Positions 11,946 through 47,736 of a stretch of 64,000 bases of DNA are shown one piece after another. Under the pieces are notes generated by a model, which was not told where the DNA came from, searched no databases, and was given only the letters and a program-made list of their open reading frames with translations. Positions within the stretch are counted from its first letter, which is position 1. Every line of letters begins with the position of its first letter. The DNA is from Halorubrum cibi (GTDB lineage: Archaea > Halobacteriota > Halobacteria > Halobacteriales > Haloferacaceae): assembly GCF_900182635.1 (NCBI RefSeq), contig NZ_FXTD01000003.1, positions 248,001 to 312,000 on the forward strand, in the 5' to 3' direction. The position numbers and the translations under genes are program-made.

Positions 11946-11963
11946 TTGTTAGGACGTTCGTTA
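11946..11963 (-). promoter_or_regulatory. TAACAA-class promoter of the GT2 gene at 10986
   Basis: Minus-strand box TAACGAACGTCCTAACAA, preceded by G at 11964 (giving GTAAC one base out of register). It ends 27 nt before the ATG at 11918, fitting a leaderless start. Confidence 0.6.
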
Positions 11964-12046
11964 CGTCGGCTCACGCCCTCCGACTCGGGCCGTGGCTGCG
12001 CACGCGACCGCGACGCCATAAGGGGCGGCACCGCCGCGCTGGGTCG

Positions 12047-12064
12047 GTAACGCGTTCATAACAA
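12047..12064 (+). promoter_or_regulatory. TAACAA-class promoter of the flippase gene
   Basis: GTAACGCGTTCATAACAA. Transcription would begin near 12091, leaving about 19 nt of leader before the flippase ATG at 12110. This is one of the few copies without a start codon at the 26-nt position. Confidence 0.6.
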
Positions 12065-12109
12065 TGCCCGCGACGCGGGTTTCCGGCGACATACCCGACT
12101 CACCGTATC

Positions 12110-13615
12110 ATGTCACCTCTCTCCGCACTCAGACGCGTGTTGACCCGCCTCACTCCGGGCGGTGACCTCACCGAGCAGACGGTGAAAAGCGGTATCTGGG
12201 CCACGATCACGAACGTCCTCGATCGGGCCCTACAGCTGCTGATGGTCGCGATCCTCGCTCGAATGCTCTCCCCGGCCGACTTCGGGCTCCTCGGTATCGC
12301 GCTGCTGACGCTGACGGCGTTCAAGCGGTTCTCGAACGTCGGGTTCGATCAGGCGCTCATCCAGAAGGCGTCGGGGAACGTCGACAGCTACCTCAACACC
12401 TACTGGAGCATCGAGATCCTTCGCGGGATCGTACTCGCCGGGATCCTCCTGTTCATCGCGCCCCTCGTCGCGGCTTTCTTCAGCGAACCGCGGGCCACCC
12501 CGATCCTCCGTGTCATCGCGCTCACGCCGTTGCTCCTCGGGCTACGCAACCCCGGTATCGTGTACTTCAGGAAGAACCTCGAGTTCCACAAGCAGTTCGT
12601 CTACACGATGAGCGGGTCGGTGACGAACTTCGTCGTCGCGCTCGCGTTCGCGCTCACGACCGGGAGCGTCTGGGCGCTCGTGTTCGGATACGTCGCCTCC
12701 GATGCCGCCCGTCTGCTGGCTTCCTACGCCATCCACGGCTACCGCCCGTGGCCGGAACTCGATCTCGAGGTCGTCCGTGATCTCTTCGGGTTCGGCAAGT
12801 GGATCACCGGTTCGGAGATCGTCTACTTCCTCATCAATCAGGGTGACGACGCGGTCATCGGGTGGGTGTTGTCGGCCACGTCGCTCGGACTGTATCAGGT
12901 CGCGTACCAGTTCGCCAAGGCCCCGGCCACGGAGATCTCCCAGATCATCTCGAGCGTCGCCTTCCCGGCGTACTCCCAGCTTCAGGACGACATCCCCGCC
13001 CTCCGGTCGGCGTTCTACCGGACGCTTCAGGTGACGATGGTGATCGCCTTTCCCGCCGCGGTCGGCATCGCGACCGTCGCCCCGACCTTCGTGGAGGCCG
13101 TCCTCGGGACCGAGTGGACGCCGATGGTGCCGGTGATGCAACTGGTCGCGGTGTACGGCCTCCTCATCGCGCTGGGGTCGGCGTACTCCCCGGTGTGGAA
13201 GGCCCTCGACCGCCCCGACTACATGGTGAAGTTGGGGGCGCTCAGACTCGTGTTGACGGCGATCATCGTCATACCCGTCACCCGGGAGTTCGGGATCGCG
13301 GGCACGGCGGCGGCGGTCCTCGGCGTCTACATCTTCCCGGTGATGCCGATCGACGTGTACCTCGTGATCGAGTCGGTCGAGACGAGCCTCGGGCGCCTGC
13401 TCCGGGAGATGTCCTATCCGGCCGCCGCGAGCCTCCTCATGGGCGGCGTCGTTCTGTGGCTCCAGGCGACGCTGACACTGGAGTGGGCGATCCTCGAACT
13501 GATCGTCCTCGTCACGGCCGGCGCCGCGGTGTACGCGGTCGCGGTCGCGGTGCTCGAGACGCAACTCCGCTGGGGACTGCGGAAGACGTTCCGGAACTTC
13601 GCCGGGGCGATCTGA
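12110..13615 (+). CDS. Lipopolysaccharide/oligosaccharide flippase (MATE-like Wzx, polysaccharide biosynthesis family)
   Basis: 501 residues with about fourteen membrane helices. The opening EQTVKSGIWATITNVLDRAL and MLSPADFGLLGIALLTLTAF are typical of polysaccharide-export flippases of the Polysacc_synt family (WzxC/AglR-like). It would carry lipid-linked oligosaccharides across the cytoplasmic membrane. It is the only flippase in the window and divergent from the GT2 gene at 10986. No frameshift or truncation is visible; length is normal for the family. Confidence 0.9.
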   Translation: MSPLSALRRVLTRLTPGGDLTEQTVKSGIWATITNVLDRALQLLMVAILARMLSPADFGLLGIALLTLTAFKRFSNVGFDQALIQKASGNVDSYLNTYWSIEILRGIVLAGILLFIAPLVAAFFSEPRATPILRVIALTPLLLGLRNPGIVYFRKNLEFHKQFVYTMSGSVTNFVVALAFALTTGSVWALVFGYVASDAARLLASYAIHGYRPWPELDLEVVRDLFGFGKWITGSEIVYFLINQGDDAVIGWVLSATSLGLYQVAYQFAKAPATEISQIISSVAFPAYSQLQDDIPALRSAFYRTLQVTMVIAFPAAVGIATVAPTFVEAVLGTEWTPMVPVMQLVAVYGLLIALGSAYSPVWKALDRPDYMVKLGALRLVLTAIIVIPVTREFGIAGTAAAVLGVYIFPVMPIDVYLVIESVETSLGRLLREMSYPAAASLLMGGVVLWLQATLTLEWAILELIVLVTAGAAVYAVAVAVLETQLRWGLRKTFRNFAGAI

Positions 13616-13629
13616 CAGACGGCGGGTGC

Positions 13630-13647
13630 GTAGGCGATCGATAACAA
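13630..13647 (+). promoter_or_regulatory. TAACAA-class promoter of the FG-GAP gene
   Basis: GTAGGCGATCGATAACAA, a full consensus copy ending exactly 26 nt before the ATG at 13674. It lies only 14 bp past the flippase stop, so the FG-GAP/lyase unit has its own promoter. It nearly matches the copy at 47719 (ATAGGCGATCAATAACAA). Confidence 0.7.
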
Positions 13648-13673
13648 TATCCACCGATCTCCAGGGAGGATCC

Positions 13674-14861: not shown

Positions 14862-14902
14862 GCGGGACGGAGAAACGACGAACGAGGTGCGGGAAACCAT
14901 GA
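14858..14902 (+). CDS. Mini-ORF 1 of an ATGA relay (14 residues)
   Basis: Its ATG overlaps the stop of the FG-GAP gene (ATGA), and its own stop overlaps the ATG of the next mini-ORF. The product MSGTEKRRTRCGKP is basic. Probably a translational bridge, not a functional peptide. Confidence 0.5.
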   Translation: MSGTEKRRTRCGKP

Positions 14903-14922
14903 GCGGGACGGAGAAACGATGA
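14899..14922 (+). CDS. Mini-ORF 2 of an ATGA relay (7 residues)
   Basis: MSGTEKR, linked by ATGA on both sides. Its first 20 bases repeat those of mini-ORF 1 exactly, so it arose by a short tandem duplication that included the start codon. Confidence 0.45.
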   Translation: MSGTEKR

Positions 14923-14957
14923 ACAGGAGGGCGAAACGGTCGGAGGGTAACGGATGA
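14919..14957 (+). CDS. Mini-ORF 3 of an ATGA relay (12 residues)
   Basis: MNRRAKRSEGNG. Its stop overlaps the ATG of the lyase-like gene at 14954. Together the three mini-ORFs leave no untranslated gap between the FG-GAP and lyase-like genes. Confidence 0.5.
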   Translation: MNRRAKRSEGNG

Positions 14958-16222: not shown

Positions 16223-16240
16223 TATCGACGGCTTACCCCG

Positions 16241-16258
16241 TTACGGCGAGCATAACAA
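16241..16258 (+). promoter_or_regulatory. TAACAA-class promoter of the 13-codon leader and phosphodiesterase-like gene
   Basis: TTACGGCGAGCATAACAA, with G just before it. It ends exactly 26 nt before the leader ATG at 16285. Confidence 0.6.
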
Positions 16259-16284
16259 ACCGGATCCTCCTCCAACCGGAGGCA

Positions 16285-16326
16285 ATGGTCCGGATCGAGT
16301 CACGTCGACGGGGGAGATCCCGATGA
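16285..16326 (+). CDS. Leader ORF of 13 residues coupled to the phosphatase-family gene
   Basis: MVRIESRRRGRSR. The ATG lies exactly where a leaderless transcript from the upstream box would begin. The TGA overlaps the ATG of the next gene. An SD-like GGGGAGA inside the leader would help re-initiation. Arg-rich, no homology expected; probably a coupling or regulatory leader. Confidence 0.5.
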   Translation: MVRIESRRRGRSR

Positions 16327-17912
16327 GCGAGGGCGGCGACCGCGCGTTCGTCCTGGGTCTCGACGGCGTCCCGTGGCCGCTCATCGAACCCTGGATCGAG
16401 GGAGGAGACCTCCCGGCCTTCGCCGAGTTGGTCGAGAAGGGAGCCTCCGGACCGCTCCGGAGCACGACGCCCGCGAACACGCCGGTCGCGTGGCCCTCCA
16501 TCGCGACCGGAACGTGGCCCGACCGGCACGGACTGTACGAGTTCATGAAGCTGGACGCCGACTACAGCCAGCGACCGTACAACCGGGAGGACCTCCGACA
16601 GCCGCCGCTCTGGGACCTGCTTTCGCCCGCCGTCGTCGCGAACGTTCCGATGACGTATCCGGCCGGCGGAGTCGGCGAGGACGGAACGATGGTCGCCGGG
16701 ATGATGACTCCCGCTCCCGACGCGGACGGGTTCACCCAGCCGCCCGAGCTCGGCGACGAGATCGTCGACCGGATCCCGGGGTATCGGGTCGGCCTCAAGT
16801 GGCACCGATACGGCGACGACCGACGCGACGAGTTCCTCGAGGACTTCGCGGCGCTGTTCGAGGGGCGCCGCGAGCTGTTGCGGTCGCTCATGGAACGGGA
16901 GGACTGGCGGCTGTTCTTCTTCACGTTCACGGCGCCCGACAGGCTCCAGCACCTGATCTGGGACGAGGACGTGATCTCGGACCACTACCGCGACCTCGAC
17001 GCGGTCCTCTCGGAGGTGATGGCGTACTGCGACCGGCTGGGCGCGACCCTCTACGTCGTCTCCGATCACGGGTTCGGCCCTATCTCGCGGATCGTCAACG
17101 TCAACCGGGCGCTGGCGGACGCGGGGCTGTTGACGCCGAAGGAGTCGAGCGGGGTCCGGGCCGCGCTCTCGCGGACCGGGGTGACGAAGGCGCGCGTGTT
17201 GGGTGCCCTAGAGCGGGTCGGCATCGACGACGAGACGCTCGTCGAGCGCCTCCCGGCGTCGGTCGTCGACGGCGTCGCCCGAACGGTGCCCGGCGACCAC
17301 GCACTCTACGATGTCGACTTCGCGCGAACCAAGGCGTTCCTCCACGGGCTGGGGAGCGTCTACGTCAACGACACCGCTCGCTTCGACGACGGAGCCGTCG
17401 ACCCGGCCGATCGCGACCGGATCAAAGCCGAGGTGATGGAGGCGCTCTCGACGCTCACGGACCCCGCCACCGGCGACGCGGTCCTCTCGGTTCACGATGG
17501 CGACGACCTCAACCCGGAGGACGAGTTCGCTCCGGACGTGGTCGTCGAGGGCGTCGAGGGGTACCACGTCAAACCCGGTCTCGGGGACGACGCGGTCGTC
17601 GACGCCGAGGGCATCGCCGCCTACCACCGACCGGAGGGCGTGTTCTTCGCCCGCGGTCCCTCGATCGCGGCCGGGACCGCCATCGAGGGCGCCACGGTCG
17701 TCGACGTGGCGCCCACGCTCCTCCATGGGCTGGGCGAGCCGGTTCCGGCGGCCGCTCAGGGGCAGGTTCTGACGGAGGTGTTCGAGTCTGGATCGTCGCC
17801 CGCGACGCGGGACGTATCCCGTCAGGACCACGGTTCGTCGACCGAGGCGACCCGTGGACTCGAGAGCGACGAAGCGGTCGAAGAGCGTCTCCGCGGGCTC
17901 GGCTACCTATGA
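16323..17912 (+). CDS. Alkaline-phosphatase-superfamily protein (type I phosphodiesterase/nucleotide pyrophosphatase-like)
   Basis: 529 residues. The superfamily metal sites are visible: Asp in FVLGLDGVPWPL, the nucleophile region ANTPVAWPSIATGTWPDRHG and LYVVSDHGFGPISRIVNVNR (Asp-His). A second metal-binding His may lie in EGVEGYHVKPG. No signal peptide. Relatives cut or transfer phospho-sugar or nucleotide bonds; in glycan clusters they may modify lipid-linked sugars. It follows the 13-codon leader (ATGA overlap) and its stop overlaps the start of the first beta-helix gene (ATGA), so the two are co-translated. Confidence 0.85.
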   Translation: MSEGGDRAFVLGLDGVPWPLIEPWIEGGDLPAFAELVEKGASGPLRSTTPANTPVAWPSIATGTWPDRHGLYEFMKLDADYSQRPYNREDLRQPPLWDLLSPAVVANVPMTYPAGGVGEDGTMVAGMMTPAPDADGFTQPPELGDEIVDRIPGYRVGLKWHRYGDDRRDEFLEDFAALFEGRRELLRSLMEREDWRLFFFTFTAPDRLQHLIWDEDVISDHYRDLDAVLSEVMAYCDRLGATLYVVSDHGFGPISRIVNVNRALADAGLLTPKESSGVRAALSRTGVTKARVLGALERVGIDDETLVERLPASVVDGVARTVPGDHALYDVDFARTKAFLHGLGSVYVNDTARFDDGAVDPADRDRIKAEVMEALSTLTDPATGDAVLSVHDGDDLNPEDEFAPDVVVEGVEGYHVKPGLGDDAVVDAEGIAAYHRPEGVFFARGPSIAAGTAIEGATVVDVAPTLLHGLGEPVPAAAQGQVLTEVFESGSSPATRDVSRQDHGSSTEATRGLESDEAVEERLRGLGYL

Positions 17913-23732: not shown

Positions 23733-24752
23733 CTACTTTTCGGGAGATCCGCTCCGCGGTCCCGCGTCGGCACCCGTCTCCGTCGGCTCCGCCAGCTCGA
23801 GCAGCTGGCCGTAGGCCTTCGCGAGCGACGTGAGATAACTCAAGGCGAGAAACACGCACTTCCGGCGAAGGGAGAGGCTCTCCCAGTCGCGGATCGACCG
23901 TCGCGCGAAACTCGGTCGCGGCGGGAGGAACGCGGCGGGGTTGAGCGCGGAGCGGAGCGGCGACCCGTAGCGGTCGGGGTAGTACCGCCGAAGCTGGGTC
24001 TTTCCGCGACCGACGCGTCTGGCCTTCCGGAGGAGCGCGCCGATCTCCGTCCGTGTCGGGTGGTACATGACTACGTCAGGGGCGTACAGGAGGCGGCGGC
24101 CGCTCGCCGCGACGCGATTCCCGAACTCGAGGTCACCTCCGGATCGGAGCCGCGAGTCGAACGCGCCGAGTTCTTCGAGGAGCGTCCGACGAACCACCAG
24201 ACAGCAGGTCGGTGCGAACGAGAGTTCGTCGAGGAATCGTTCGACGTGGAGGTCGTTGAGCCGGTTGTACCGGGCTACCGCGCCCTCGTCGCCGGGGGTG
24301 AACAGCCGCACGTCGCAGGCGAGGTACTCCGCGTCGGTCCGGGCCATTCGTCGCGCGACGTCGTCGATCCAGCCCGGATCGACGATCATGTCGGCGTCGA
24401 CGAAGGCGATCACCGTCCCCGTTGCGGCGGAGATACCCTCGTTCCGGGCGGCATACGAGCCCTGAACCTCGTCCTCGACGAGCAACCGGAGACCGTCGAA
24501 CGCCTCGAGGTACTCGCGGACGACTTCGCGCGTCCCGTCGGTCGATCCGTTGTCCACGACGATCACCTCGTACCGGTCCGCGGGGGACGACTGCCTGCGG
24601 AGGGATTCGAGCGTCGCCTCGATCCCGGTCGGATCGTTGTACACCGGGACCACGACCGAGACGAACGGGAGTTCCTTCCCCTCCGCGTCCGAGGTGTTCC
24701 CGAGTCCAGGCCCGTGGCGATCGGCGGTCGCCGGGTTGCGCTGAGAAGCCAC
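23733..24752 (-). CDS. Glycosyltransferase family 2
   Basis: 339 residues from GTG at 24752. The GT-A domain is clear: PFVSVVVPVYNDPTGIEATL, YEVIVVDNGSTDGTREVV, GTVIAFVDADMIVDPGWIDD (D-x-D) and SGGDLEFGNRVAASGRRLLY. The C-terminal 90 residues are basic with one weak hydrophobic helix (KCVFLALSYLTSLAKAYG) that may touch the membrane. An ATG at 24779 is in frame, but it overlaps the TAACAA promoter box. The GTG at 24752 lies exactly 26 nt after the box, as at other promoters of the region, so it is preferred. Confidence 0.88.
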   Translation of the reverse strand: MASQRNPATADRHGPGLGNTSDAEGKELPFVSVVVPVYNDPTGIEATLESLRRQSSPADRYEVIVVDNGSTDGTREVVREYLEAFDGLRLLVEDEVQGSYAARNEGISAATGTVIAFVDADMIVDPGWIDDVARRMARTDAEYLACDVRLFTPGDEGAVARYNRLNDLHVERFLDELSFAPTCCLVVRRTLLEELGAFDSRLRSGGDLEFGNRVAASGRRLLYAPDVVMYHPTRTEIGALLRKARRVGRGKTQLRRYYPDRYGSPLRSALNPAAFLPPRPSFARRSIRDWESLSLRRKCVFLALSYLTSLAKAYGQLLELAEPTETGADAGPRSGSPEK

Positions 24753-24778: not shown

Positions 24779-24796
24779 TTGTTATAGGAACCGTAC
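24779..24796 (-). promoter_or_regulatory. TAACAA-class promoter of the GT2 gene at 23733
   Basis: GTACGGTTCCTATAACAA on the minus strand, ending 26 nt before the GTG at 24752. It decides the start: the ATG at 24779 shares its A with the box. Confidence 0.65.
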
Positions 24797-24945: not shown

Positions 24946-24963
24946 GTAGGCGGTCTATACTCT
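24946..24963 (+). promoter_or_regulatory. Possible variant promoter of the Gfo/Idh gene
   Basis: GTAGGCGGTCTATACTCT keeps the GTAGGCG-N4-TA part of the element but has TACTCT in place of TAACAA. The start codon is 29 nt downstream. Confidence 0.35.
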
Positions 24964-27432: not shown

Positions 27433-28224
27433 TCACTCCGTCCGAGCGGAGAGTGGAAGGTCCTCGTAGGAGGTCTTCGTGAGGTAGACCTTCCGCCCGG
27501 CGATCTCGGTGTGCGCCGGCTCGAACGGGGGGAAGTCCAGTGCGCGGATCTTGTCGTAGGTTTCGACGGATCCCTCCCCGGTGAGCCGTTCGAGCGGGAT
27601 CTCCTTCTCGCCGTCCAGGCTCGTTTTGTTGTAGAAGTAGGTCTTCCCGTCGAACTCGGACTGGGGCGTCCGCATCGATCGGACCTCGCCCGAGACGACG
27701 TTCGGTAACTGTTCCTCGAACAGCTCGATCGAGGCCCGTTCCGTTTTCTCGTACAACGACTTCGCGGTGTCCTCTTCGGTGATATCGACGAAGTTGCGTG
27801 CGACGATGTCCCCCTCATCGACCGCCTCGGACATGAAGTGTAGCGTCGTTCCGTACTTCCAGTAGTCGTCGTCGCGCGCGTTCATGATCGCGTGGCTGAA
27901 CGTGTTGCTCCCCCCGTATCGCGGGAGTTCCGCCTGGTGGAGGTTCAACCCCCCGTACCGCGGGTGTTCGAGGACGTCCTCGCCGAGGATGTCGTAATAA
28001 AGGACGCTGATGAGGTAGTCCAGGTCGTACTCGAAGAGATCCGACTCTTCGACGACCGGGTACCCGTATCCCTCGGCCGTGGAACGGAGCGATCCGTCCC
28101 ACCACCCTTCGTGATCCTCGGGATAGGTCACGACCGCTTCGACGGAGATCGCCTCTTCGCCGTGTAGCAGTTCCAGGCAGGCCCGACTGAGCGGACGACT
28201 ACCGAGGAGCGCGACTGAGATCAT
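27433..28224 (-). CDS. Formyltransferase-family protein, probable sugar N-formyltransferase
   Basis: 263 residues of the 10-formyl-THF-dependent transferase fold. The N-terminal strand ISVALLGSRPLSRACLELL, the catalytic region GGLNLHQAELPRYGGSNTFS (Asn-x-His) and MSEAVDEGDIVARN (catalytic Asp) are present. Archaea do not formylate initiator Met-tRNA, so with the surrounding glycan genes an N-formyltransferase acting on an amino nucleotide sugar is most likely. The start overlaps the stop of the preceding surface-protein gene (ATGA). The C-terminal 60 residues are shorter than the tRNA-binding domain of Fmt. Confidence 0.8.
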   Translation of the reverse strand: MISVALLGSRPLSRACLELLHGEEAISVEAVVTYPEDHEGWWDGSLRSTAEGYGYPVVEESDLFEYDLDYLISVLYYDILGEDVLEHPRYGGLNLHQAELPRYGGSNTFSHAIMNARDDDYWKYGTTLHFMSEAVDEGDIVARNFVDITEEDTAKSLYEKTERASIELFEEQLPNVVSGEVRSMRTPQSEFDGKTYFYNKTSLDGEKEIPLERLTGEGSVETYDKIRALDFPPFEPAHTEIAGRKVYLTKTSYEDLPLSARTE

Positions 28225-30083
28225 CGTTCGAACTGCCCCCGGTAAAGACTCCGGACCGTCTCCCGTTGGTCGGCATCGAGCCCCGCGTAGTCGCTCTCGT
28301 ATCGCTCTGTAGCCAGTTCGTCCCACGACTCGATCCGGTCGCCGTCGTCGGACTCGAACTGCGCGTCGAACGCCGCCTCGATCTCCTGTTGAGTTTCGAC
28401 CTCGATCGAGGTGAACTCGAAGGCGTCGTTCCGCCCCACGTCGAGCCCGAACTCCTGACGCGCGATCTCCTCGCGAGTCAGCACCTCCGTGACGACGAGC
28501 CCGTCGCTGAACGGCTGTCTCTCGTGTATCTCGTCGATCTGGCTCCGCGTCTCGTTGCTGACCTCGTCGTAATCCAGACCGTACTTCTCCTGGGTGATCA
28601 CGTCCCGCGAGACGATCTCCGGCTCGTCGTTTACGGGTTCCGGCTCGTCGTTCGCCGCCGACGACGTCGACGAGCTGCTCCCGCTGGAGTAGTGGCGAAC
28701 GACCACCACGTCGGTCGCGTTGGCGTCCCCGCTGTAGACGCCGTAGACGTGTGTTCCGAGCAGGTCCCGGTCATCGAACCGGTCCCGATCGTCCTCGGCG
28801 AGCGTGAACTCGACGGTCGTCCGCTCGCCCGGCGCGAGGTCTACGGACCGGTTCTCCACGACCGTTTCAGGGTCGTCGTCGCCGTCCAGATCGATTCGGT
28901 GCTCGACCGTCCGGTTCGCGGCCGCGTCGCCCGTGTTCCACACCCTCGCGGCGAAGCGGATGTCGTCGTCGACGTCGGCCGACCGCGGACCGTCCAGGTC
29001 GTCGACCGCGAGGTGGCTCTCGCGAACGCGGAGCGTCCCCGTGGCCGAATCGTTCGCCGTCGAGAGGGCGATCGAGTAGTTTCCACGAGTCAGGTTCCCC
29101 GTCCCGGCGGCGAACTCGAGCGTCGTCGAGGCGTTCCCGTCGAGCGTCGTCGTTCGGTTCCAGTCGAACGCCTCGGTCGGCCCGTCGAGATGAACCGTCG
29201 CGTTCCCCCGGACGTCGCCCGCGTTCACCAGCGTCACCGACCCGTTGAACCGCTCGCCTCGGACGGCGTCCGTGGTCATCGTCGACCCCGCAAGTCGGAA
29301 GGTCGCGGGCCGCAAGACGGTCAGCGTTCCCTCCTCGACGCTCTCTCCGACCTCGACCCGGTACGCGTAGGTCCCCGGCTCGAGTCCGTCGGTCCTGACC
29401 GAGAGGGTCGCGGACGCGTCTTCTCCCGCCCGGAGCAGCGGCGCCCTCGTGGCGACGATCTCGCTGGCGTCGTACGTGCCGTCTCGGTTCCGGTCGAGGT
29501 GGAGGTCGAGGGTTCGCATTCCGCGGAAGTCACCACGGTTGCGCACGGTCACGGAGACGGTCCCGATCGCGCCGCGGACGACCGGCTCCGCACGGACCTT
29601 GGAGGTATCGAACGCGGGTCCCTCGAGGGTGACGGTTCCCGTCGCCAGCGTCCCCGCCTCGTCGCCGAGCGCGTAGTCGTACCGTCCCGCGGTCATCGCG
29701 TCGGCAGGGGCCGAGAGGGTGACCTCCCGGGTTTCCCCCGCGGACAGACTCACCGTCCGTTCGTCGACCGTGAACGAGAACCCGTCCTCGTCCTCGACGA
29801 CCAGTTCTATCGATCTCGTCGCGCCGGCCGCGTCGCTGTTGTTGAGCGTGGTCCGGACCTCGAAGGCGACGTTGCTGGCGCTCGATCTCCCTCCCGTCGT
29901 TCCCTCCGCAGTCACCGATCGCCGTTCTTCGGACCCTCCAGCGGCCACCGACTGTCGGTCTTCGGTCCCCTCGACGGTCATCGCCTCGCCGCCGCTTCCC
30001 GGGTCGGTGAACGACGAGACGCCGACCGCCCCGACGACGACGATCATCAGGAGCACCGCGGCGTGTGTCTGTGAGATACCCAT
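28221..30083 (-). CDS. Secreted Ig-like (CARDB-type) surface protein with a C-terminal helical repeat array
   Basis: 620 residues. A Sec-type signal (MGISQTHAAVLLMIVVVGAV) starts the protein. Residues about 60-455 hold three or four Ig-like modules with phrases such as VSLSAGETREVTLSAPADAM and VDLAPGERTTVEFTLAEDD, typical of CARDB/NEW3 folds. Residues about 487-620 carry three copies of a short helical repeat, e.g. DVITQEKYGLDYDEV and SWDELATERYESDYAGLDAD, shared with the secreted protein at 48681. The ATG at 30083 is 26 nt after a promoter box; longer in-frame starts are rejected. Co-translated with the formyltransferase gene. Confidence 0.82.
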   Translation of the reverse strand: MGISQTHAAVLLMIVVVGAVGVSSFTDPGSGGEAMTVEGTEDRQSVAAGGSEERRSVTAEGTTGGRSSASNVAFEVRTTLNNSDAAGATRSIELVVEDEDGFSFTVDERTVSLSAGETREVTLSAPADAMTAGRYDYALGDEAGTLATGTVTLEGPAFDTSKVRAEPVVRGAIGTVSVTVRNRGDFRGMRTLDLHLDRNRDGTYDASEIVATRAPLLRAGEDASATLSVRTDGLEPGTYAYRVEVGESVEEGTLTVLRPATFRLAGSTMTTDAVRGERFNGSVTLVNAGDVRGNATVHLDGPTEAFDWNRTTTLDGNASTTLEFAAGTGNLTRGNYSIALSTANDSATGTLRVRESHLAVDDLDGPRSADVDDDIRFAARVWNTGDAAANRTVEHRIDLDGDDDPETVVENRSVDLAPGERTTVEFTLAEDDRDRFDDRDLLGTHVYGVYSGDANATDVVVVRHYSSGSSSSTSSAANDEPEPVNDEPEIVSRDVITQEKYGLDYDEVSNETRSQIDEIHERQPFSDGLVVTEVLTREEIARQEFGLDVGRNDAFEFTSIEVETQQEIEAAFDAQFESDDGDRIESWDELATERYESDYAGLDADQRETVRSLYRGQFER

Positions 30084-30109: not shown

Positions 30110-30127
30110 TTGTTACGGCGAGCATAC
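30110..30127 (-). promoter_or_regulatory. TAACAA-class promoter of the surface-protein gene
   Basis: GTATGCTCGCCGTAACAA on the minus strand, 26 nt before the ATG at 30083. Close to the copy at 41645. Confidence 0.65.
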
Positions 30128-30261: not shown

Positions 30262-30279
30262 CAAGTCTCTCCATAACAA
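30262..30279 (+). promoter_or_regulatory. TAACAA-class promoter of the amino-sugar operon
   Basis: CAAGTCTCTCCATAACAA. The 3' half is perfect and ends exactly 26 nt before the ATG at 30306; the 5' GTA is missing. It appears to drive the whole block to 36248. Confidence 0.5.
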
Positions 30280-30305: not shown

Positions 30306-30473
30306 ATGGGAGACCTACAACGAAACGTCCCGGCGTCGGCGGTTGCGGACGCCGGACTCGGAGTCACGACCGAACGCGACGCCCTCGTCAGGGAACGCGC
30401 CGTCTTCACCGGTGCCCCCGCCGCGCCCCGCGCGCTCCCGGAACCGCTCGGCGGGTCGAACTCGATAGCATGA
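30306..30473 (+). CDS. Small ORF of 55 residues heading the amino-sugar operon
   Basis: The ATG at 30306 is 26 nt after a promoter box, and the stop overlaps the start of the DegT gene (ATGA). It begins MGDLQRNVPASAVADAGLGV and is Ala/Pro-rich towards the end. It could be a leader peptide or a remnant of an acyltransferase-like gene; neither can be shown. Position and coupling support translation more than its composition does. Confidence 0.45.
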   Translation: MGDLQRNVPASAVADAGLGVTTERDALVRERAVFTGAPAAPRALPEPLGGSNSIA

Positions 30474-38819: not shown

Positions 38820-38837
38820 TTGTAATAGGCGGCTTAC
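38820..38837 (-). promoter_or_regulatory. TAACAA-class promoter (TTACAA variant) of the DUF354 gene
   Basis: GTAAGCCGCCTATTACAA on the minus strand, 25 nt before the ATG at 38794. Confidence 0.55.
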
Positions 38838-38883: not shown

Positions 38884-38901
38884 GTAACCGATGTATAACA
38901 A
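38884..38901 (+). promoter_or_regulatory. TAACAA-class promoter of the leader and polytopic membrane protein gene
   Basis: GTAACCGATGTATAACAA, full consensus. It ends exactly 26 nt before a GTG at 38928 that opens a 27-codon leader. The facing DUF354 promoter lies 46 bp away. Confidence 0.65.
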
Positions 38902-38927: not shown

Positions 38928-39011
38928 GTGCTCGCTCGACAGCGCGTCCGATCCCGGCGACCACGGGCGACCCGTGAGCCGCGCGAACGCCGACGGAGTG
39001 ATCCGACGTGA
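38928..39011 (+). CDS. Leader ORF of 27 residues coupled to the polytopic membrane protein
   Basis: GTG start at the predicted transcript start. The TGA overlaps the GTG of the membrane-protein gene (GTGA). The product is strongly basic (starts MLARQRVRSRRPRATRE). It is the same arrangement as at 16285, 41691 and 46464. Function as a peptide is doubtful; coupling or attenuation is more likely. Confidence 0.45.
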   Translation: MLARQRVRSRRPRATREPRERRRSDPT

Positions 39012-41086
39012 GGACGTCAGTGCGACGGGAGGACGGCCGAGCCGCCGAAGCGGCGCTCGCGGTCGGATACCTGGCGCTCACGGCGGGGATCGCGGCCTCC
39101 TACGCCGCGCCGGCGACCGGCTACGAGCTGTCGATATACGCGGCGACGCCGGCGGTGACGTGGGCAGCGCTCGCGGTCGCGGGCGCCGTCTCGGTCGGCG
39201 TCTGTCTGTCCGACGAGCGATACCTCGCGCCGGCGGTGTTGCTCGCGGCTCTCGGGGCCGCGACAGTCGCCGGCCTCCCCCTGATCCGCGGCTACCACTT
39301 CTACGGGCGGGCCGATTCGCTGGTCCACCTCGGTCTCGTGCGGTCGATCTCCGTCGGAAACGACCCGCTCCGGCTGTTCTATCCGGGGAGTCACCTCATC
39401 GCGACGAGCCTCGCCAAGGTCGCGGCCCTGGAGGTGACTCGGGCGATGATGCTCGTCATGTGGACGTACACGCTGGTGTTCTTCGCGAGCGTCCCGCTTT
39501 GCGTCTGGTTCCTGGTCCCGGACCGCCGTGCGCTGGCCGTCGGCGCGTTCTCCGCGTTCCTGTTGTTGCCCATAAACAACGTCAGTACGCATCAACACTT
39601 CCACACGTACTCGATCGGGATGCTGTTCGTTCCCTTCGTGATCTACGTGGTGTTCACGCACCTCATCGGCGGTGACGCGCGCGAGCGGGCCGTCAAACGG
39701 GTCGCCGACGGGAGCGGCGCGATCGGTCGCGGGACGGTGGGGCTCGACGACACCGTCGCGTTCTCCGTGGGGTCGAGAAAGCCGGTCCCGACGAGCTACC
39801 TCCTGCCGCTGATCTCGATCGCGCTGGTGTTGGTCCATCCCCAGATCGCGTTGAACGTCGTGTTCCTGTTCGGCGGAATGGTGGTCACGCAGCACGCGTA
39901 TCGACGATTCCGCCCGGACAACGTACTCGCCGAGTACCGCCTACTCACGTTCCAGACGGCGTTTCTCCTCGTGGTGTTCGTGGTCTGGGTCGCCACTCAC
40001 GAGTGGCAGTTCGTCAACACGGCGGAGGCGATGATCGAGTCGGTGACCGAGTTCGCCGCCGGCGAGGGAAGTACGACGCCGCGCGTCGAGAGTCAGAGCG
40101 AGTCGGCGTCGTCGATCGGTGCGAGCATCCAGGAGCTCTTCGTCAAACTGTTCGGCGTCGGGGCGATCTACTCGCTACTGGCGGCGGCGGCCGTTCTGGG
40201 ACGGGTGACCGGATACCTCGGGCCGCTCGAGGGACGGGGATCGAGGCGATCGGACCCCGACACCGCGAAGGACGTCACGACGTTGTTCTTCGCGGGGATC
40301 CTCGTGCTTCTCCCGTTCTTCGCGGCTCACTTCGTGGGGTCCATCTCGACGTACCTGTTCCGACACGTCGGGTTCCTCATGATGCTCGCCACGATCTTCG
40401 GTGCGGTCGGCGTCCGGTACCTGCTGGCCGACGAGTCCCCGCTGAGCGGTCTCGGTAGCCGTTCGGCGGAAACGCGCGTCGGGTCGTCGTCCGCCCGGTT
40501 CACCGAGGTGCTCCCGGAGGCCCGTTCGGTCGCGGCGGTCGCGGTCGTCGTGTTGCTCCTCTCGCTGTCGCTGGCCACGGTGTTCCCCTCGCCGTTCGTG
40601 TACCTCTCGGGCTCGCACGTTCCCGAGGGCGAGATGGACGGCTACGAGCGGGCGTTCGCGAGCCAGTCGGGAGGGTCGCCGGTCTGGTTCGGTGGTGTGC
40701 GTCACACCTCGGACCGCTACGAGGTCGCGCTGTACGGGGCGGAGTCGGCACCGTGGGACCGACAGGTGAACCCTGCTGTGATAAAGAGCTCACCGGTCCC
40801 GGACCGGGCGATGCTGGACGGGTTGCCGACGTACTACGCGAACCACCCCGAGGAGATCGTCAGGCGCGATCACTACTTCGTCGTCGCGGAGGCCGACCGT
40901 CAACGCGAAGTGCTCGCGTACCGCGAACTGCGATACTCGGCGGACGCCTTCGAGGCCGTCGAGGCGCAACCCGACGTCGGGAAGGTCAGGGACAACGGGG
41001 AACTGACCGTCTACTTCGTCGACATTCCGTCGGACACGTTCCCGGAGTCGCCCGACGAGGACGCGGCGACGGTTCCCGGAGGGTAG
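39008..41086 (+). CDS. Polytopic membrane protein, GT-C-like or polymerase-like
   Basis: 692 residues with about twelve to thirteen membrane helices in the first 540 residues and a C-terminal extracytoplasmic domain of about 140 residues. The loop HFYGRADSLVHLGLVRSISV after helix 4 contains the acidic position typical of GT-C enzymes. NNVSTHQHFHTYSIGMLFVP and YLFRHVGFLMMLATIFGAVG are other conserved-looking segments. It could be an oligosaccharyl- or dolichyl-P-sugar-dependent transferase or a polysaccharide polymerase, roles otherwise missing from the region. GTG start, preceded by the coupled leader. Confidence 0.7.
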   Translation: MRTSVRREDGRAAEAALAVGYLALTAGIAASYAAPATGYELSIYAATPAVTWAALAVAGAVSVGVCLSDERYLAPAVLLAALGAATVAGLPLIRGYHFYGRADSLVHLGLVRSISVGNDPLRLFYPGSHLIATSLAKVAALEVTRAMMLVMWTYTLVFFASVPLCVWFLVPDRRALAVGAFSAFLLLPINNVSTHQHFHTYSIGMLFVPFVIYVVFTHLIGGDARERAVKRVADGSGAIGRGTVGLDDTVAFSVGSRKPVPTSYLLPLISIALVLVHPQIALNVVFLFGGMVVTQHAYRRFRPDNVLAEYRLLTFQTAFLLVVFVVWVATHEWQFVNTAEAMIESVTEFAAGEGSTTPRVESQSESASSIGASIQELFVKLFGVGAIYSLLAAAAVLGRVTGYLGPLEGRGSRRSDPDTAKDVTTLFFAGILVLLPFFAAHFVGSISTYLFRHVGFLMMLATIFGAVGVRYLLADESPLSGLGSRSAETRVGSSSARFTEVLPEARSVAAVAVVVLLLSLSLATVFPSPFVYLSGSHVPEGEMDGYERAFASQSGGSPVWFGGVRHTSDRYEVALYGAESAPWDRQVNPAVIKSSPVPDRAMLDGLPTYYANHPEEIVRRDHYFVVAEADRQREVLAYRELRYSADAFEAVEAQPDVGKVRDNGELTVYFVDIPSDTFPESPDEDAATVPGG

Positions 41087-41169: not shown

Positions 41170-41472
41170 TCAGTCGATCAGTCCTTCGGTCTCGATGCGT
41201 TTCCAGAGATGCTGTCCCCTCTCCGTGACCCCGTAGATGCGTCCCTTCCGCTTTTCCTTCGAAACGAGCAGTTCGACGAGCGAACGATCGCGGAGGGACC
41301 GCAGCGCACGCGAGACGTGGGTGATGGGGAGCCCGGTACGGGACGCGATCGAGGAGGGAGTGGAGGGACTCTCGACGAGCTGTTCGAGCACCGCCGTTCG
41401 GTATTTGGAGCTGATGATGAATCCGATCTGGTCCCAATCGTTCGTGGCGTCTTCGTTCCGCTCGTTCTCCAT
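41170..41472 (-). CDS. Small winged-helix transcription regulator (MarR/ArsR-like)
   Basis: About 100 residues, one winged helix: GFIISSKYRTAVLEQLVESP, then PSSIASRTGLPITHVSRALR (recognition helix) and the wing VSKEKRKGRIYGVTERGQHL. No ligand domain. The ATG at 41472 is preferred; one at 41499 adds nine residues and lies too close to the TATA-like stretch near 41515-41529. It is the only free-standing small DNA-binding protein inside the glycan region, which makes it a candidate local regulator (inference). Confidence 0.78.
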   Translation of the reverse strand: MENERNEDATNDWDQIGFIISSKYRTAVLEQLVESPSTPSSIASRTGLPITHVSRALRSLRDRSLVELLVSKEKRKGRIYGVTERGQHLWKRIETEGLID

Positions 41473-41644
41473 TGATTGCCTTTCCCGCCCTACGGACATA
41501 AGGCGTGGAGATCGTTTATAAAATAACGAGGGCGCTTCGACGATTCGCGTCCTCCCGTCACGCCGCCGCGGATCCGTCCGCAGTCGGTCGGTAATGCCTT
41601 CTTACCGCGTCGGAGGAGATCGGGTTCCGCGTCGGTCGAGTCGG

Positions 41645-41662
41645 ATATGCTCCCCATAACGA
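41645..41662 (+). promoter_or_regulatory. TAACAA-class promoter (TAACGA variant) upstream of the DUF1616 unit
   Basis: ATATGCTCCCCATAACGA, close to the copy at 30110. It ends 28 nt before the ATG at 41691. Confidence 0.5.
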
Positions 41663-41690: not shown

Positions 41691-41837
41691 ATGAGTGACC
41701 GCCACCTCGAACCGATCGGAGCACACGGCAGTCAGTCGCGGCACTCGGCCCGTACCGGCACGACCGATCCGATCGACGTTCACTGCGAGGGCGACGAGCG
41801 GCACCGGGACGGCTCCTCCCGCTCCCCTCCGCGATGA
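41691..41837 (+). CDS. Leader ORF of 48 residues coupled to the DUF1616 gene
   Basis: It begins MSDRHLEPIGAHGSQSRHSA just downstream of a promoter box, runs without a stop, and its TGA overlaps the ATG of the DUF1616 gene at 41834. Polar, His/Arg/Asp-rich and without predicted structure. Confidence 0.45.
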   Translation: MSDRHLEPIGAHGSQSRHSARTGTTDPIDVHCEGDERHRDGSSRSPPR

Positions 41838-42802: not shown

Positions 42803-42805
42803 CCG

Positions 42806-43403: not shown

Positions 43404-43931
43404 TTAGTGTGCGCTCCAGCGTTCTGTCTCTACGTAATGAAGCACCGTTAGAACGGTCAACAGCACCCATCCCGTACCGATCAGAACCATTTCGGTTCGG
43501 CCCAGCTCCCCGCCGATCGTGATCAGTCCGTACACGAGGAATCCGAGGAGCGTGACGAGGAGGTAGTACCGTCCCCAGGGACGCGCGTCGCCGTCTTTGG
43601 GAGCCTCCGCGTCGAGATATCGATTGAGATCGCTTCCCCGATCCGTGAGCCGAATGTCTCCCGTGTCACCGTCGTAATCGACGATTCCCGCCTCCTCGAG
43701 CTTCGGGATGTGTGTCTGATACAGGGAGACGTACAACCGCTTCCGCTGTTTGTCGGTCAGCGCTTCCGGCTCCGTTTCGTTCTCCCACGCCGCGACTTCC
43801 GTCGCGAGATCCTGGAGTTGGATGCTCTCTCCGGTTCTGTTCAGATACTGGAGGATGAACCGTCGTCGCGGATTGCTGAGAAGACTGAACATGGCGTCCT
43901 GATCCAACCCATTATTTCGGTTTTTTGTCAT
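43404..43931 (-). CDS. DUF7344-type winged-helix protein with C-terminal membrane helices
   Basis: 175 residues, the third member of this family in the window. Winged helix: QDAMFSLLSNPRRRFILQYL, then LTDKQRKRLYVSLYQTHIPKLEEAGIVDYD. Two membrane helices close the protein (YYLLVTLLGFLVYGLITIGG and MVLIGTGWVLLTVLTVLHYV). Closest in layout to the gene at 9338. A membrane-anchored regulator is inferred. It converges on the YdjM-like gene. Confidence 0.85.
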   Translation of the reverse strand: MTKNRNNGLDQDAMFSLLSNPRRRFILQYLNRTGESIQLQDLATEVAAWENETEPEALTDKQRKRLYVSLYQTHIPKLEEAGIVDYDGDTGDIRLTDRGSDLNRYLDAEAPKDGDARPWGRYYLLVTLLGFLVYGLITIGGELGRTEMVLIGTGWVLLTVLTVLHYVETERWSAH

Positions 43932-44083
43932 TTTGTGGGGCGACGAGGTTCGGGTAGTAGGTCCGATGCTATGAGTTCAGCCGCTTCCTCTCGTCTTTGT
44001 TACATACCGTATATCATCGGTAACGGCGGATTACTCGGGGTTACGACCGCCAGCGGCGGTCGGTCTCAGCCGGCGCGACGCCA

Positions 44084-44599: not shown

Positions 44600-44880
44600 A
44601 CCTTCCCTCGACAGGACCCGTCCTGATTATTATGTGGTTCATACCCCCCTACAGGAACCTCCTTCCCGATCCGTCCCGGTGTGACGGTACCCGACGCGGG
44701 TCGTGCGTACCGATCGCGATCGTGGGGGCGGCGAGTAGGTACCCCTTAGATCGTCGGACTTCCGATCGGCCCGGAAGGAGACCGGACCCCGGCGGCCCTT
44801 TCGATTCCTCCGCGTCGAACGGCGAGGACCTCGCGTTGGACCCCCGTGAATCATTCCCGTTCTCCGGAAACCGCGCGTCG
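44600..44880. other. Intergenic region
   Basis: About 280 bp with no convincing gene. The AT-rich tract near 44625-44645 would serve the NUDIX promoter on the minus strand. No repeats seen. Confidence 0.4.
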
Positions 44881-44898
44881 TTAGGTCGTCTATTACGA
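44881..44898 (+). promoter_or_regulatory. Possible TAACAA-class promoter (TTACGA variant) of the DUF7511 gene
   Basis: TTAGGTCGTCTATTACGA resembles the copy at 38820. The start codon is 30 nt downstream, slightly longer than the usual 25-28. Confidence 0.35.
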
Positions 44899-44928
44899 TA
44901 TGTGGACGAGTCCCACACGAGGCTATCG

Positions 44929-45105
44929 ATGAGAACGACCGAGGACTCACACGGTACCGGGAACGCGATCGAGGCGACGATGGTGCGGTACGACGATCGC
45001 CCGGAGGAACGAACGCTCTATCTGACTCCCACAGGGGAGAAACGAACCACCGAGTGGATGTGCGCGAGTCGCGGTGGGTACGTCTCGCTCGGGTTGTGTC
45101 GCTGA
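44929..45105 (+). CDS. DUF7511-type small haloarchaeal protein
   Basis: 58 residues. ATMVRYDDRPEERTLYLTPT, then TTEWMCASRGGYVSLG, matches the pattern of the haloarchaeal DUF7511 family (V-V-R-Y-D-x-R-P-x-E-x-T-L, ending W-I-x-A-x-E-G-S-Y-V-S-L). Function unknown; these proteins are stand-alone and cytoplasmic. The start is set by the conserved length and lies 30 nt after a promoter-like box. Usual members end in an acidic residue before the stop; this one ends CR. Confidence 0.72.
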   Translation: MRTTEDSHGTGNAIEATMVRYDDRPEERTLYLTPTGEKRTTEWMCASRGGYVSLGLCR

Positions 45106-45175
45106 GTCCTCCACGTCCGATTCGCCGGACTCCGTCGCCGTCACTCGACGAACTCACCCGGCGGCCCCGTTCCGA

Positions 45176-46333
45176 TCAGTTCTCCGAATTCGCGGTCACG
45201 GCGGTGTCGTCCAAGGCGCGTGCATACACCGAGAGGAGGTCGTCGACGACGTCGGGCCACGCGTAGGACTCCTCGATACGTCGGCGGCTGACCCGGCCCA
45301 TCCGTTCGATCGCCGCCGGATCCGAGAACAGCCTCTCAAGGGTGTCGGTCAGCTCACGGACGTCTCCGGGAGAGACGATCGCACCGTTCTCCTCGTCGAC
45401 GATCGAGGGTATTCCCCCGACGTCGGTCGAGACGATCGCGTTCGCTCCGGCCATCGCCTCCAGTACGGCGATCGGCAGCCCTTCCGCCCGCGTCGGGAGG
45501 ACGTACACGCTTCCCTCGCTGAGGAGGTCTCGTTTCCGCTTCTCGGACACGAAGCCGACGTAGTCGACGGCGTCGTGATCGGCGGCGACGGCGGCGGCGT
45601 GACTCGAGAGGGGACCGCTTCCGGCGATCGTCGCCCGGAACCGGACTCCGGCGTCCTGTAGTTCGTCGACGGCCTCCGCCACGTCGATTATGCCCTTCCG
45701 CTCGATGTGGTTGGAGACGAACACGAGATGAGGCGGGTCGGCGGCGGGATCGGGGTCGTACTCGTCCGGGTCGACCGCGTTGGGTACCACGGCGATCCGC
45801 TCCGCGGGAACACGCGCTGAAAGGACGTCCCGCCAGCCCTCCGAGAGGGCGATCGTCGTGGTGCTGGCGTCGAACACCGCCCGCTGGAGGGCCGCCACCG
45901 GAGCCGACGCGTCCTCGATGAACGCGTCGAACGACGAGCCGTGGACGTGGAGTATCACGGGCCGATTCCACAGCGCCGCAGCGACGAGGACGTAGGGCGC
46001 CGAGACGTAAAACGAGAGGGAATGAGAGGTGTGGACGTGAACGAGATCGGGACGTCGACGACGGAGAAATCCGATCCACGTGAGTAGAACGACGACCGCG
46101 GTTCGGAGGTACTCCACCGGACGATCGGGAGTTCTCACCGCGGTGTCGACGACGTCCACCGAGACCCGACCGTGGAGATATCGCCGCTGTTCCGCGATAT
46201 ATCGGCCGATGCCGCCGGTTCCTTCCGTGCGATACCCCGCCGGACCGACGACGAGTACCTCCGTCGACGGCGGTACTTCCGTCGCGGTCGATTCCGACCG
46301 CCGATCCCCGCCGATCTGCCCGACCGCAGTCAT
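45176..46333 (-). CDS. Glycosyltransferase family 4 (GT-B)
   Basis: 385 residues. The N-terminal half has VLVVGPAGYRTEGTGGIGRY and LVHVHTSHSLSFYVSAPYVL (acceptor side). The C-terminal half has the donor motifs RIAVVPNAVDPDEYDPDPAA, HLVFVSNHIERKGIIDVAEA and EGLPIAVLEAMAGANAIVST, including the E-x7-E pair. It would add a sugar from a nucleotide donor with retention. Its ATG overlaps the stop of a 44-codon leader (ATGA). Confidence 0.92.
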   Translation of the reverse strand: MTAVGQIGGDRRSESTATEVPPSTEVLVVGPAGYRTEGTGGIGRYIAEQRRYLHGRVSVDVVDTAVRTPDRPVEYLRTAVVVLLTWIGFLRRRRPDLVHVHTSHSLSFYVSAPYVLVAAALWNRPVILHVHGSSFDAFIEDASAPVAALQRAVFDASTTTIALSEGWRDVLSARVPAERIAVVPNAVDPDEYDPDPAADPPHLVFVSNHIERKGIIDVAEAVDELQDAGVRFRATIAGSGPLSSHAAAVAADHDAVDYVGFVSEKRKRDLLSEGSVYVLPTRAEGLPIAVLEAMAGANAIVSTDVGGIPSIVDEENGAIVSPGDVRELTDTLERLFSDPAAIERMGRVSRRRIEESYAWPDVVDDLLSVYARALDDTAVTANSEN

Positions 46334-46464
46334 CGTCGTCTCCGGTCGTCGCCGCGATCGCGACCATCCCGATCGGTAACTGGCGGCTGGTCAGTAACTG
46401 GCAGTCGGTCGGTAACCGGCGCCCGATCGGTAACCGACGGACTCCGTGGGGGCTCGTCGTTCAT
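46330..46464 (-). CDS. Leader ORF of 44 residues with PVTDR repeats, coupled to the GT4 gene
   Basis: The ATG at 46464 is 25 nt after a TAACAA box, and the TGA overlaps the GT4 ATG. It begins MNDEPPRSPSVTDR and contains four copies of a six-residue unit (VTDRAP-like) encoded by an 18-bp tandem repeat (about 46370-46440). Copy number could change leader length without breaking the frame. Confidence 0.5.
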   Translation of the reverse strand: MNDEPPRSPSVTDRAPVTDRLPVTDQPPVTDRDGRDRGDDRRRR

Positions 46465-46489
46465 ACCGAGACCACCGTAGTCGTCCGTT

Positions 46490-46507
46490 TTGTTATCCGT
46501 CGACTAC
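46490..46507 (-). promoter_or_regulatory. TAACAA-class promoter of the GT4 leader
   Basis: GTAGTCGACGGATAACAA on the minus strand, full consensus, 25 nt before the leader ATG at 46464. Confidence 0.65.
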
Positions 46508-46569
46508 TGACCGCGGCGCCCACGCCACGGGCCTCCCGCGACGAGCGTGTCGATTGGTATGTGGTATCG

Positions 46570-47430
46570 TCACAAAGTCACGAGGTACTGCGGGTCCGCC
46601 CGTAGACGCGGGACGAGAGATGACTTCAGGTCACCCAGGGTGAAAAACAGGACCTGAAGCCCGTTCAAGTCGTACCTGTGGAGGACGCCGTCACGTTCCA
46701 GGTCTCTGGTCAGTTTCGGCTTGTTCCACGAGTAGAACGGCGAGGTGCGGACGCCGCAGGTCTGTTCGACCGGCTCACAGCCGCCCTCCTCGGTACAGAT
46801 CACCCCCTCGAAGGTCTCCGTAACGACGTACTCGAGGTCTAGACGGCTCTCGAAGTGGTGAAGGTGCGAGCAGGTGAGCCACGGCGTCCCGATGTCCATA
46901 ACCAACGCGTCCTCCTCGACGAGTCGGGCGAAACAGCCGTCCTCGTGGTACGTGTCGGAGTGTAGACAGCCGTCGAACCGGTAGGGACCTCTCACCAGGA
47001 TCGACTTCATCGCGTCGTCGGTTCGATAGTCGGCGTCCCGGAGGAACAGCGGCCCGAAGGTCCCGTGTTTCGGCCGGGAGTACTGCTTGTGATACACCCC
47101 GGACGTCGCGAAGTAGTCCGTGAATCCCGGCGCGAGCACGCTCCGGAAGTGCTCGTCGAGCTTCGACCGGAGGAACGCGTAGGGATCGGTTCGGAACGCC
47201 CGCTTTACGTCGCTCAAACCGACGTGAACGAACACCTTCGAACGCCCGTCGCCGTGCCGATTGAGCAGTTCGTCCAGCCGAGCGACCGGTACCTCGGAGG
47301 CGCTCCGTCGTCGGTTCAGTTGCTTGAGGGCCTGGTGTTTGACCAGGTTCCCGATCCTACTCACGTCGGTCAGTGTTCCGGATGGCATGGATCGGTTCTC
47401 GGTTCGGTCCGTTCCGTATCGCGGGTCCAC
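46570..47430 (-). CDS. AAC(3)-family N-acetyltransferase-like protein
   Basis: 286 residues. VFVHVGLSDVKRAFRTDPYA resembles the AAC(3) N-terminal V-H-x-S-L-S pattern. LAPGFTDYFATSGVYHKQYS, LFLRDADYRTDDAMKSILVR and ALVMDIGTPWLTCSHLHHFE follow the family order (acetyl-CoA fold with a late His pair). True resistance enzymes keep more of the active site. In this context an acyltransferase for a surface amino sugar is plausible. GTG start at 47430 with GGAGGT five nt upstream (47436-47441), a rare clear SD site here. Confidence 0.65.
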   Translation of the reverse strand: MDPRYGTDRTENRSMPSGTLTDVSRIGNLVKHQALKQLNRRRSASEVPVARLDELLNRHGDGRSKVFVHVGLSDVKRAFRTDPYAFLRSKLDEHFRSVLAPGFTDYFATSGVYHKQYSRPKHGTFGPLFLRDADYRTDDAMKSILVRGPYRFDGCLHSDTYHEDGCFARLVEEDALVMDIGTPWLTCSHLHHFESRLDLEYVVTETFEGVICTEEGGCEPVEQTCGVRTSPFYSWNKPKLTRDLERDGVLHRYDLNGLQVLFFTLGDLKSSLVPRLRADPQYLVTL

Positions 47431-47718
47431 GGGTTACCTCCGTCCCGAAACCGTTCGTCGACGTCGGGACCCCTTCCGTTCGGATAACCCGACCATACTC
47501 GCCCGTCGCACGTCGGCAGTGTAGTTACGATCCCTCTATCACCGGGTAGTAGGCTGTTACCCGACCGGCGAGTTGACTGTCGTCTCCTACGGTTCCTCGT
47601 CCGGGGGATGATCGACGGGATGGTGCGTGGGATCCGGCGTTGGACCCCTCCGACTCGGGAGCCGTCGGCCGAAACCGCTCGTGGGCCGAGGGCTCGAAGC
47701 GGTCGAGCGAGGGGAGAG
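47431..47718. other. Divergent intergenic region
   Basis: About 290 bp with no gene. On the minus strand GTATGGTCGGGTTATCCG (47481-47498) resembles the promoter element only in part and could serve the acyltransferase gene with a short leader. Confidence 0.35.
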
Positions 47719-47736
47719 ATAGGCGATCAATAACAA
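47719..47736 (+). promoter_or_regulatory. TAACAA-class promoter of the GT2 gene at 47763
   Basis: ATAGGCGATCAATAACAA, 26 nt before the ATG at 47763. Confidence 0.65.

Follow-up and report, generated by a model that had tools for sequence, protein, structure and literature searches.

The 64-kb stretch of DNA analyzed here (the window; C3:248001-312000, 2% of a 3.18-Mb Halorubrum genome) carries a gene cluster at 8.4-48.6 kb in which a short box, A-N8-ATAACAA(T/A), is present at about 16 of 22 transcription-unit starts, with a modal distance of 26 nucleotides (nt) to a start codon. This feature is real, conserved and found class-wide in haloarchaea. The box probably acts as a leaderless core promoter dedicated to surface-polysaccharide genes, several of which would be translated through coupled leader open reading frames (ORFs). 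The cluster encodes a flippase, glycosyltransferases, a UDP-sugar dehydrogenase and epimerase, an aminotransferase and GFO/IDH oxidoreductases, besides alginate-lyase-like, beta-helix, FG-GAP, CARDB and DUF1616 proteins and regulators, and this gene content identifies it as a surface-polysaccharide cluster.

Location of the box in the cluster

All twelve strong boxes listed in the original prediction are present. The gap of exactly 26 nt between box and start codon that had been reported for seven of them holds for the sites at 13630, 16241, 24779, 30110, 30262, 38884 and 47719. The broader statement, 25-28 nt at nearly all strong sites, stands for the boxes at 38820 and 46490 (25 nt), 11946 (27 nt) and 41645 (28 nt), but not for the one at 12047. 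Among the three weaker forms proposed, that at 44881 was recovered with 30 nt to an ATG, but the one at 24946 is a poor match and the one at 1778(-) is doubtful, having no A/TA element and ending in ACAC. Sites beyond that list lie at 44627(-) before a NUDIX gene and at 9976(-) before a DUF7344 gene, and weak ones near 9269(-) and 44014(-). The sites are:

9252..9269 (-): weak box ATATGGACTTTATTATTA, 26 nt to ATG 9225 of a HalOD1 gene
9959..9976 (-): box TAATCCGGTTCATAACTA, 25 nt to a 13-amino-acid (aa) ORF (9892-9933) that stops shortly ahead of ATG 9889, the start of a DUF7344 gene
11946..11963 (-): box TAACGAACGTCCTAACAA, 27 nt to ATG 11918 of a GT2 glycosyltransferase gene (10986-11918); kept in five congeners
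12047..12064 (+): box GTAACGCGTTCATAACAA, 45 nt to ATG 12110 of the polysaccharide flippase gene; exception to the 26-nt rule
13630..13647 (+): box GTAGGCGATCGATAACAA, 26 nt to ATG 13674 of an FG-GAP protein gene
16241..16258 (+): box TTACGGCGAGCATAACAA, 26 nt to leader ORF start 16285
24779..24796 (-): box GTACGGTTCCTATAACAA, 26 nt to GTG 24752 of a GT2 glycosyltransferase gene (23733-24752)
24946..24963 (+): weak box, doubtful, ahead of the GFO/IDH gene at 24993
30110..30127 (-): box GTATGCTCGCCGTAACAA, 26 nt to ATG 30083 of a CARDB-domain protein gene (28221-30083)
30262..30279 (+): box CAAGTCTCTCCATAACAA, 26 nt to leader ORF start 30306
38820..38837 (-): box GTAAGCCGCCTATTACAA, 25 nt to ATG 38794 (DUF354/glycosyltransferase-like)
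38884..38901 (+): box GTAACCGATGTATAACAA, 26 nt to leader ORF GTG 38928
41645..41662 (+): box ATATGCTCCCCATAACGA, 28 nt to leader ORF start 41691
about 43997-44014 (-): weak box upstream of DUF7344 gene 43404..43931
44627..44644 (-): box GTATGAACCACATAATAA, 27 nt to ATG 44599 of a NUDIX gene; overlooked in the original prediction
44881..44898 (+): box TTAGGTCGTCTATTACGA, 30 nt to ATG 44929 of the gene for a small DUF7511 protein (58 aa, 44929-45105)
46490..46507 (-): box GTAGTCGACGGATAACAA, 25 nt to leader ORF start 46464
47719..47736 (+): box ATAGGCGATCAATAACAA, 26 nt to ATG 47763 of a GT2 glycosyltransferase gene

A Haloarcula-type ortholog (52% identity) of the FG-GAP gene at 13674 is likewise boxed, and so is a DUF7511 gene in another family (L177:559-753; genome G196).

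Architecture of the box

The element was described from 155 non-redundant sites chosen by their ATAACAA part only, some of them retrieved with TA in the search pattern. One helical turn upstream of ATAACAA these sites have an A (92%) and, to a lesser degree, a T (75%), and the G is a mere preference. GTA as an invariant triplet is thus ruled out, and what is left of the proposed dedicated upstream site GTA-N8 is the A, and less so the T, at a fixed distance. In a group of 70 sites whose core was a variant, 36 had TA at the expected offset, and every other tested offset gave at most 8. The start codon followed after 26 nt in 89 of the 155 sites and after 25-28 nt in 133, in agreement with the fixed distance between core element and start codon in leaderless promoters.

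Promoters of Haloferax volcanii are characterized by TTWT (the TATA element), CGAAA (the TFB recognition element, BRE) and a WW element at -10, and 72% of the protein-coding transcripts are leaderless (PMC4983044). The box resembles this canonical haloarchaeal promoter in its distance to the leaderless start codon and in the -10 WW element (A/T in 77% of the 155 sites at -11 and in 54% at -10), which is conserved in congeners too. It differs in having ATAACAA in place of BRE and TTWT, in the extra A 8 bp upstream and in its restricted gene set. TTWT near -28 is absent from the 155-site consensus, where ATAACAA(T/A) takes its place; CGAAA was not seen in these sites, and there is no enrichment of A within N8. 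Since background promoters of this genome show a T peak at -30 to -26, the box occupies the TATA position, yet by sequence it is no TATA box. The earlier suggestion that TAACAA replaces the TATA box is supported to this extent, with BRE and TTWT missing and the -10 WW retained.

We therefore propose, from the position and composition of these sites, that A-N8-ATAACAA(T/A) is probably a specialized haloarchaeal core-promoter element standing in for BRE and TATA. ATAACAA would be located at about -33 to -27 and the conserved A a helical turn above it. The -10 WW is kept, and the box would direct leaderless transcription from the start codon 25-28 nt downstream. The same position would suit an operator for a repressor covering the TATA position. 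Such a role is very unlikely, because no canonical TATA or BRE is left under or beside the box and the site is non-palindromic.

Enrichment of the box within the genome

With at most one mismatch, GTA-N8-ATAACAA has 11 matches in the window compared to 0.13 expected from shuffled sequences. Genome-wide, all five exact matches (p ~3e-9) and 11 of the 43 one-mismatch matches (p ~7e-10) fall in the window. The pattern ATAACAA-N24-30-RTG has 21 matches in the genome, seven of them in the window with gaps of 26 (six) or 25 nt (one); the 14 matches outside have scattered gaps, and their number is near that of a reversed-pattern control (10). A matrix scan for strong boxes gave 13 in the 40-kb cluster versus one in 345 kb and one in a further 376 kb elsewhere in the genome, counts that are partly circular, as sites of the window had served to build the matrix. 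A chance origin of the boxes is ruled out by the shuffled sequences, the controls with reversed patterns and the counts over the whole genome.

The box does not have equal frequency before unrelated genes of this genome either, but is concentrated in the cluster. The genes at 52-64 kb are without it, as had been stated for most of the metabolic genes there, and the canonical TTTATAAA noted at 62971 is present, with a second copy at 41515. A local TATA style of the region is ruled out as an explanation, since just one of 185 background promoters of the same genome contains TAACAA. As the box marks one surface-polysaccharide cluster in the genome, the boxed genes at 8.4-48.6 kb would form one regulon.

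Conservation in Halorubrum congeners

Five congeners have the cluster in syntenic form, and a sixth has it in pieces. Eleven orthologous boxes are shared by the six genomes of the comparison, one of which is that of the window. In ungapped alignments, identity was 98% in the invariant box columns, 76% in N8, 44% in the upstream flank and 58% in the downstream flank, and a second conservation peak appeared at the -10 element. The aligned congener sites were located by the matrix, which biases them somewhat toward conservation of the box.

Occurrence of the box across haloarchaea

TA-N8-ATAACAA-N26-RTG is present in 251 of 391 haloarchaeal genomes, and in 126 of them there are 162 matches compared to 27 for the reversed pattern. 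Two class-wide tests were independent of any box-based choice of loci. The first began with a protein search for the 692-aa product of gene 39008-41086, which gave 43 haloarchaeal orthologs. A box was located upstream in 26 of the 43, versus about 2.6 expected (0.06 per locus), and the antisense strand of these loci had four boxes. The single A lies exactly 8 bp before ATAACAA in 32 of 34 ortholog sites with a good core, and the box is retained in orthologs of 30-36% protein identity. In the second test, 20 stretches picked for a protein of the type encoded at 41170 (see below) contained 3.9 boxes per 20 kb compared to a background of 0.26 in the window's own genome. Many haloarchaeal families have the box, and the genes behind it are mainly, though not exclusively, surface-glycan genes. 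Genome enrichment, congener conservation and this protein-anchored sampling support, at the level of sequence, the shared surface-glycan regulon of the original prediction, in which the boxed genes would be co-regulated. No published description of the box was found among the open-licence papers searched.

These data also bear on the possibility that the box is a weak TATA variant tolerated by ordinary TFB/TBP, which spread by ancestry and cluster transfer and implies no dedicated regulation. Spacing and WW element are indeed those of an ordinary leaderless promoter, and clusters move between species. We nevertheless consider this explanation unlikely, because the box is 98% kept where the flanks are not, persists in the distant orthologs with no drift to TTTATA, has the extra A fixed at a constant 8-bp distance, and is not used by other genes of the same genome.

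Leader ORFs

The start codons 25-28 nt downstream of the boxes had been taken as gene starts. At 16241, 30262, 38884, 41645 and 46490 this had to be revised, as they open short leader ORFs, each with a stop codon overlapping the start codon of the main gene:

16285..16326 (+): 13-aa leader ORF, overlapping the start of a phosphodiesterase-family gene, 16323-17912 (ATGA); 13 aa in every congener
30306..30473 (+): 55-aa leader ORF, overlapping the DegT aminotransferase gene start 30470 (ATGA)
38928..39011 (+): 27-aa leader ORF, overlapping GTG 39008 of the gene for the 692-aa membrane protein, 39008-41086 (GTGA); 27 aa in every congener
41691..41837 (+): 48-aa leader ORF, overlapping ATG 41834, where the DUF1616 gene begins (ATGA)
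46330..46464 (-): 44-aa leader ORF, overlapping ATG 46333, where a GT4 glycosyltransferase gene begins (ATGA); 12-67 aa in congeners

The five ORFs have little or no coding signal. Four of them recur in congeners with the overlap kept; at the 30262-type site the congeners have the start of the DegT aminotransferase gene itself at about 35 nt from the box. The 13-aa ORF 9892-9933 before a DUF7344 gene is coupled by ATGA in several congeners, and in other families like leaders precede UDP-sugar dehydrogenase, epimerase, flippase and other genes. A conserved leader peptide as the function is mostly ruled out by lengths ranging from 12 to 68 aa at two of the orthologous sites, the 13-aa and 27-aa leaders being possible exceptions. 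The GT4 leader ORF at 46330-46464(-) and its congener orthologs contain low-complexity PVTDR-type repeats whose length differs from one species to the next, but they retain the ATGA overlap.

Pooled over every cluster sampled, the leader-type sites that had a start codon 24-30 nt away numbered 72, and 52 of these were coupled. The control, for which the remaining out-of-frame start codons of these leaders were used, gave 33 of 134 and is inflated because some of its start codons share a frame. After removal of redundancy, 17 of 26 sites were coupled, which is above the one-in-six expectation and not clearly above even odds. Overlapping stop/start pairs were strictly coupled in 13 of 14 pairs tested in Haloferax and E. 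coli (PMC6728339). The leaders share with those pairs the ATGA/GTGA overlap in haloarchaea, but differ in that the upstream partner is a short ORF, mostly unconserved in sequence, at the predicted 5′ end of the mRNA. Where the main gene starts elsewhere than at the box-determined position, the leaderless mRNA would open with a short ORF. Given the overlap of its stop codon with the main start, translation of the main gene would then proceed by termination-reinitiation.

Candidate readers of the box

Lacking the canonical elements, the box probably depends on a factor of its own. This could be an activator, for instance one of the winged-helix proteins encoded in the cluster, or else an alternative pair of TFB and TBP. 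It is possible, though short of probable, that such a pair reads the box, in which case specificity would come from the basal machinery instead of an activator. The box sits exactly on the TATA position with BRE and TTWT absent, TFB genes number about seven and TBP genes four to five in this genome, and the box occurs in genomes without a 41170-type protein. However, at about -42 the conserved A is farther out than the usual BRE, and no TFB or TBP gene was present near any of the box clusters examined.

The cluster itself encodes two kinds of candidate regulator:

41170..41472 (-): candidate regulator, 100-aa single winged helix of HVO_A0261_N type, weakly EarA-like; no box, canonical TTTATAAA at 41515
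43404..43931 (-): DUF7344 candidate regulator, winged helix plus hydrophobic helices; weak box upstream

The 41170 protein matches the profile PF25213 (HVO_A0261_N) above the cut-off and PF07381 (EarA) with 21.0 bits, just below the cut-off of 22. With 85-88% identity in congeners it is among the best conserved proteins of the cluster. Across haloarchaea, 41170-type genes are often found near DUF7344 genes. DUF7344 is present in three copies in the window, at 9338-9889(-), 10067-10675(-) and 43404-43931(-), and combines an N-terminal winged helix with two C-terminal hydrophobic helices. Its AlphaFold2 model (mean predicted local distance difference test score 84) has its best PDB matches among MarR/HxlR-like regulators, with weak E-values, and the modeled architecture suggests that these proteins are likely membrane-anchored regulators. 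No literature on the DUF7344 family was found among the open-licence papers searched.

By analogy to EarA, either the 41170-type protein or the membrane-anchored DUF7344 may bind the bipartite box and recruit TFB/TBP, an idea that we put forward tentatively. In its favor are the box density of the 41170-ortholog stretches and the conservation of the 41170 protein, whose own upstream TATA-like sequence is canonical. Across genomes, the number of DUF7344 copies rises with the number of boxes (Spearman 0.49; partial coefficient 0.29 with genome size allowed for), and DUF7344 genes occur in most congener clusters and in 8 of 15 class-wide stretches, one of them being well boxed. On the other hand, DUF7344 adjoins just 5 of the 43 protein-anchored loci, and both proteins may be mere polysaccharide-cluster genes. 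In our own tally, genomes with and without a 41170 ortholog have on average 1.46 and 1.14 box matches per genome, and box-rich genomes such as G106 lack the ortholog, which rules out the 41170 protein as the sole universal reader.

EarA is a small winged-helix protein that compensates for a weak BRE at archaellum promoters (PMC13286277). This precedent makes the 41170 protein attractive as a reader for this cluster without being a general answer. As summarized there, the EarA-dependent archaellum promoters of Methanococcus and Pyrococcus resemble the boxed promoters in a weak or missing BRE, and the candidate binder 41170 is distantly EarA-like; motif and genes are different, and 41170 scores just under the EarA cut-off. 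The CsmR regulon of Haloferax volcanii (PMC13286277) likewise involves a small winged-helix regulator adjoining the core promoter of surface-structure genes, but the CsmR motif is semi-palindromic (TATCA-N4-TGATA) and lies beside an intact TATA, whereas the box is non-palindromic and replaces TATA. DUF7344 is similar in layout to the membrane-bound factors ArnR/ArnR1 of Sulfolobus, mentioned in the same paper, with an N-terminal winged helix, C-terminal hydrophobic helices and a place in surface-structure clusters. DUF7344 comes from another archaeal phylum, and the likeness is one of domain layout and setting.

Several observations weigh against the box being a dedicated promoter of surface-polysaccharide genes. 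About 6 of the 22 unit starts within the cluster have no box. The flippase box at 12047 has no start codon at 26 nt, the gene starting at 45 nt, and in several congeners the offset is 39-46 nt. Some boxed genes class-wide, namely those for DUF378 and MoxR-type ATPases, are not obviously surface genes, so that the link to surface genes, which make up most of the boxed genes, is a strong bias and no rule. No single regulator tracks the box through all genomes, and the site set describing the element was partly retrieved using the motif. That the box represents a class-wide, previously undescribed core-promoter type in control of surface-polysaccharide genes, with its own factor, whose leaderless mRNAs often open with a mini-ORF of poorly conserved sequence on which the real gene depends for termination-reinitiation, is in our estimate about evenly balanced.

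Other genes of the window

A tyrosine recombinase gene is located at 1975-3009(-), near the left end of the window and outside the conserved cluster. At 27433-28224(-) the cluster contains a formyl-transferase-family gene without a counterpart at that place in congeners, and the 444-aa protein encoded at 48681-50015(-), with a weak malectin match, has no full-length counterpart in congener clusters. At the right cluster edge lie two divergent genes for TrmB-family regulators, 50574-51359(-) and 51758-52555(+), which are conserved in congeners and have no box.

Implications

If our interpretation is correct, the genes for surface polysaccharide synthesis in haloarchaea would be run by a promoter without the textbook BRE and TATA, and a simple sequence rule could list the boxed genes in any haloarchaeal genome. 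Several assigned start codons in these clusters would then need correction. The boxed clusters offer a concrete system for probing the roles of haloarchaeal TFB/TBP paralogs or of small winged-helix proteins, and they suggest leaderless transcription combined with overlapping stop/start codons as a route by which genes starting inside an mRNA may be translated.

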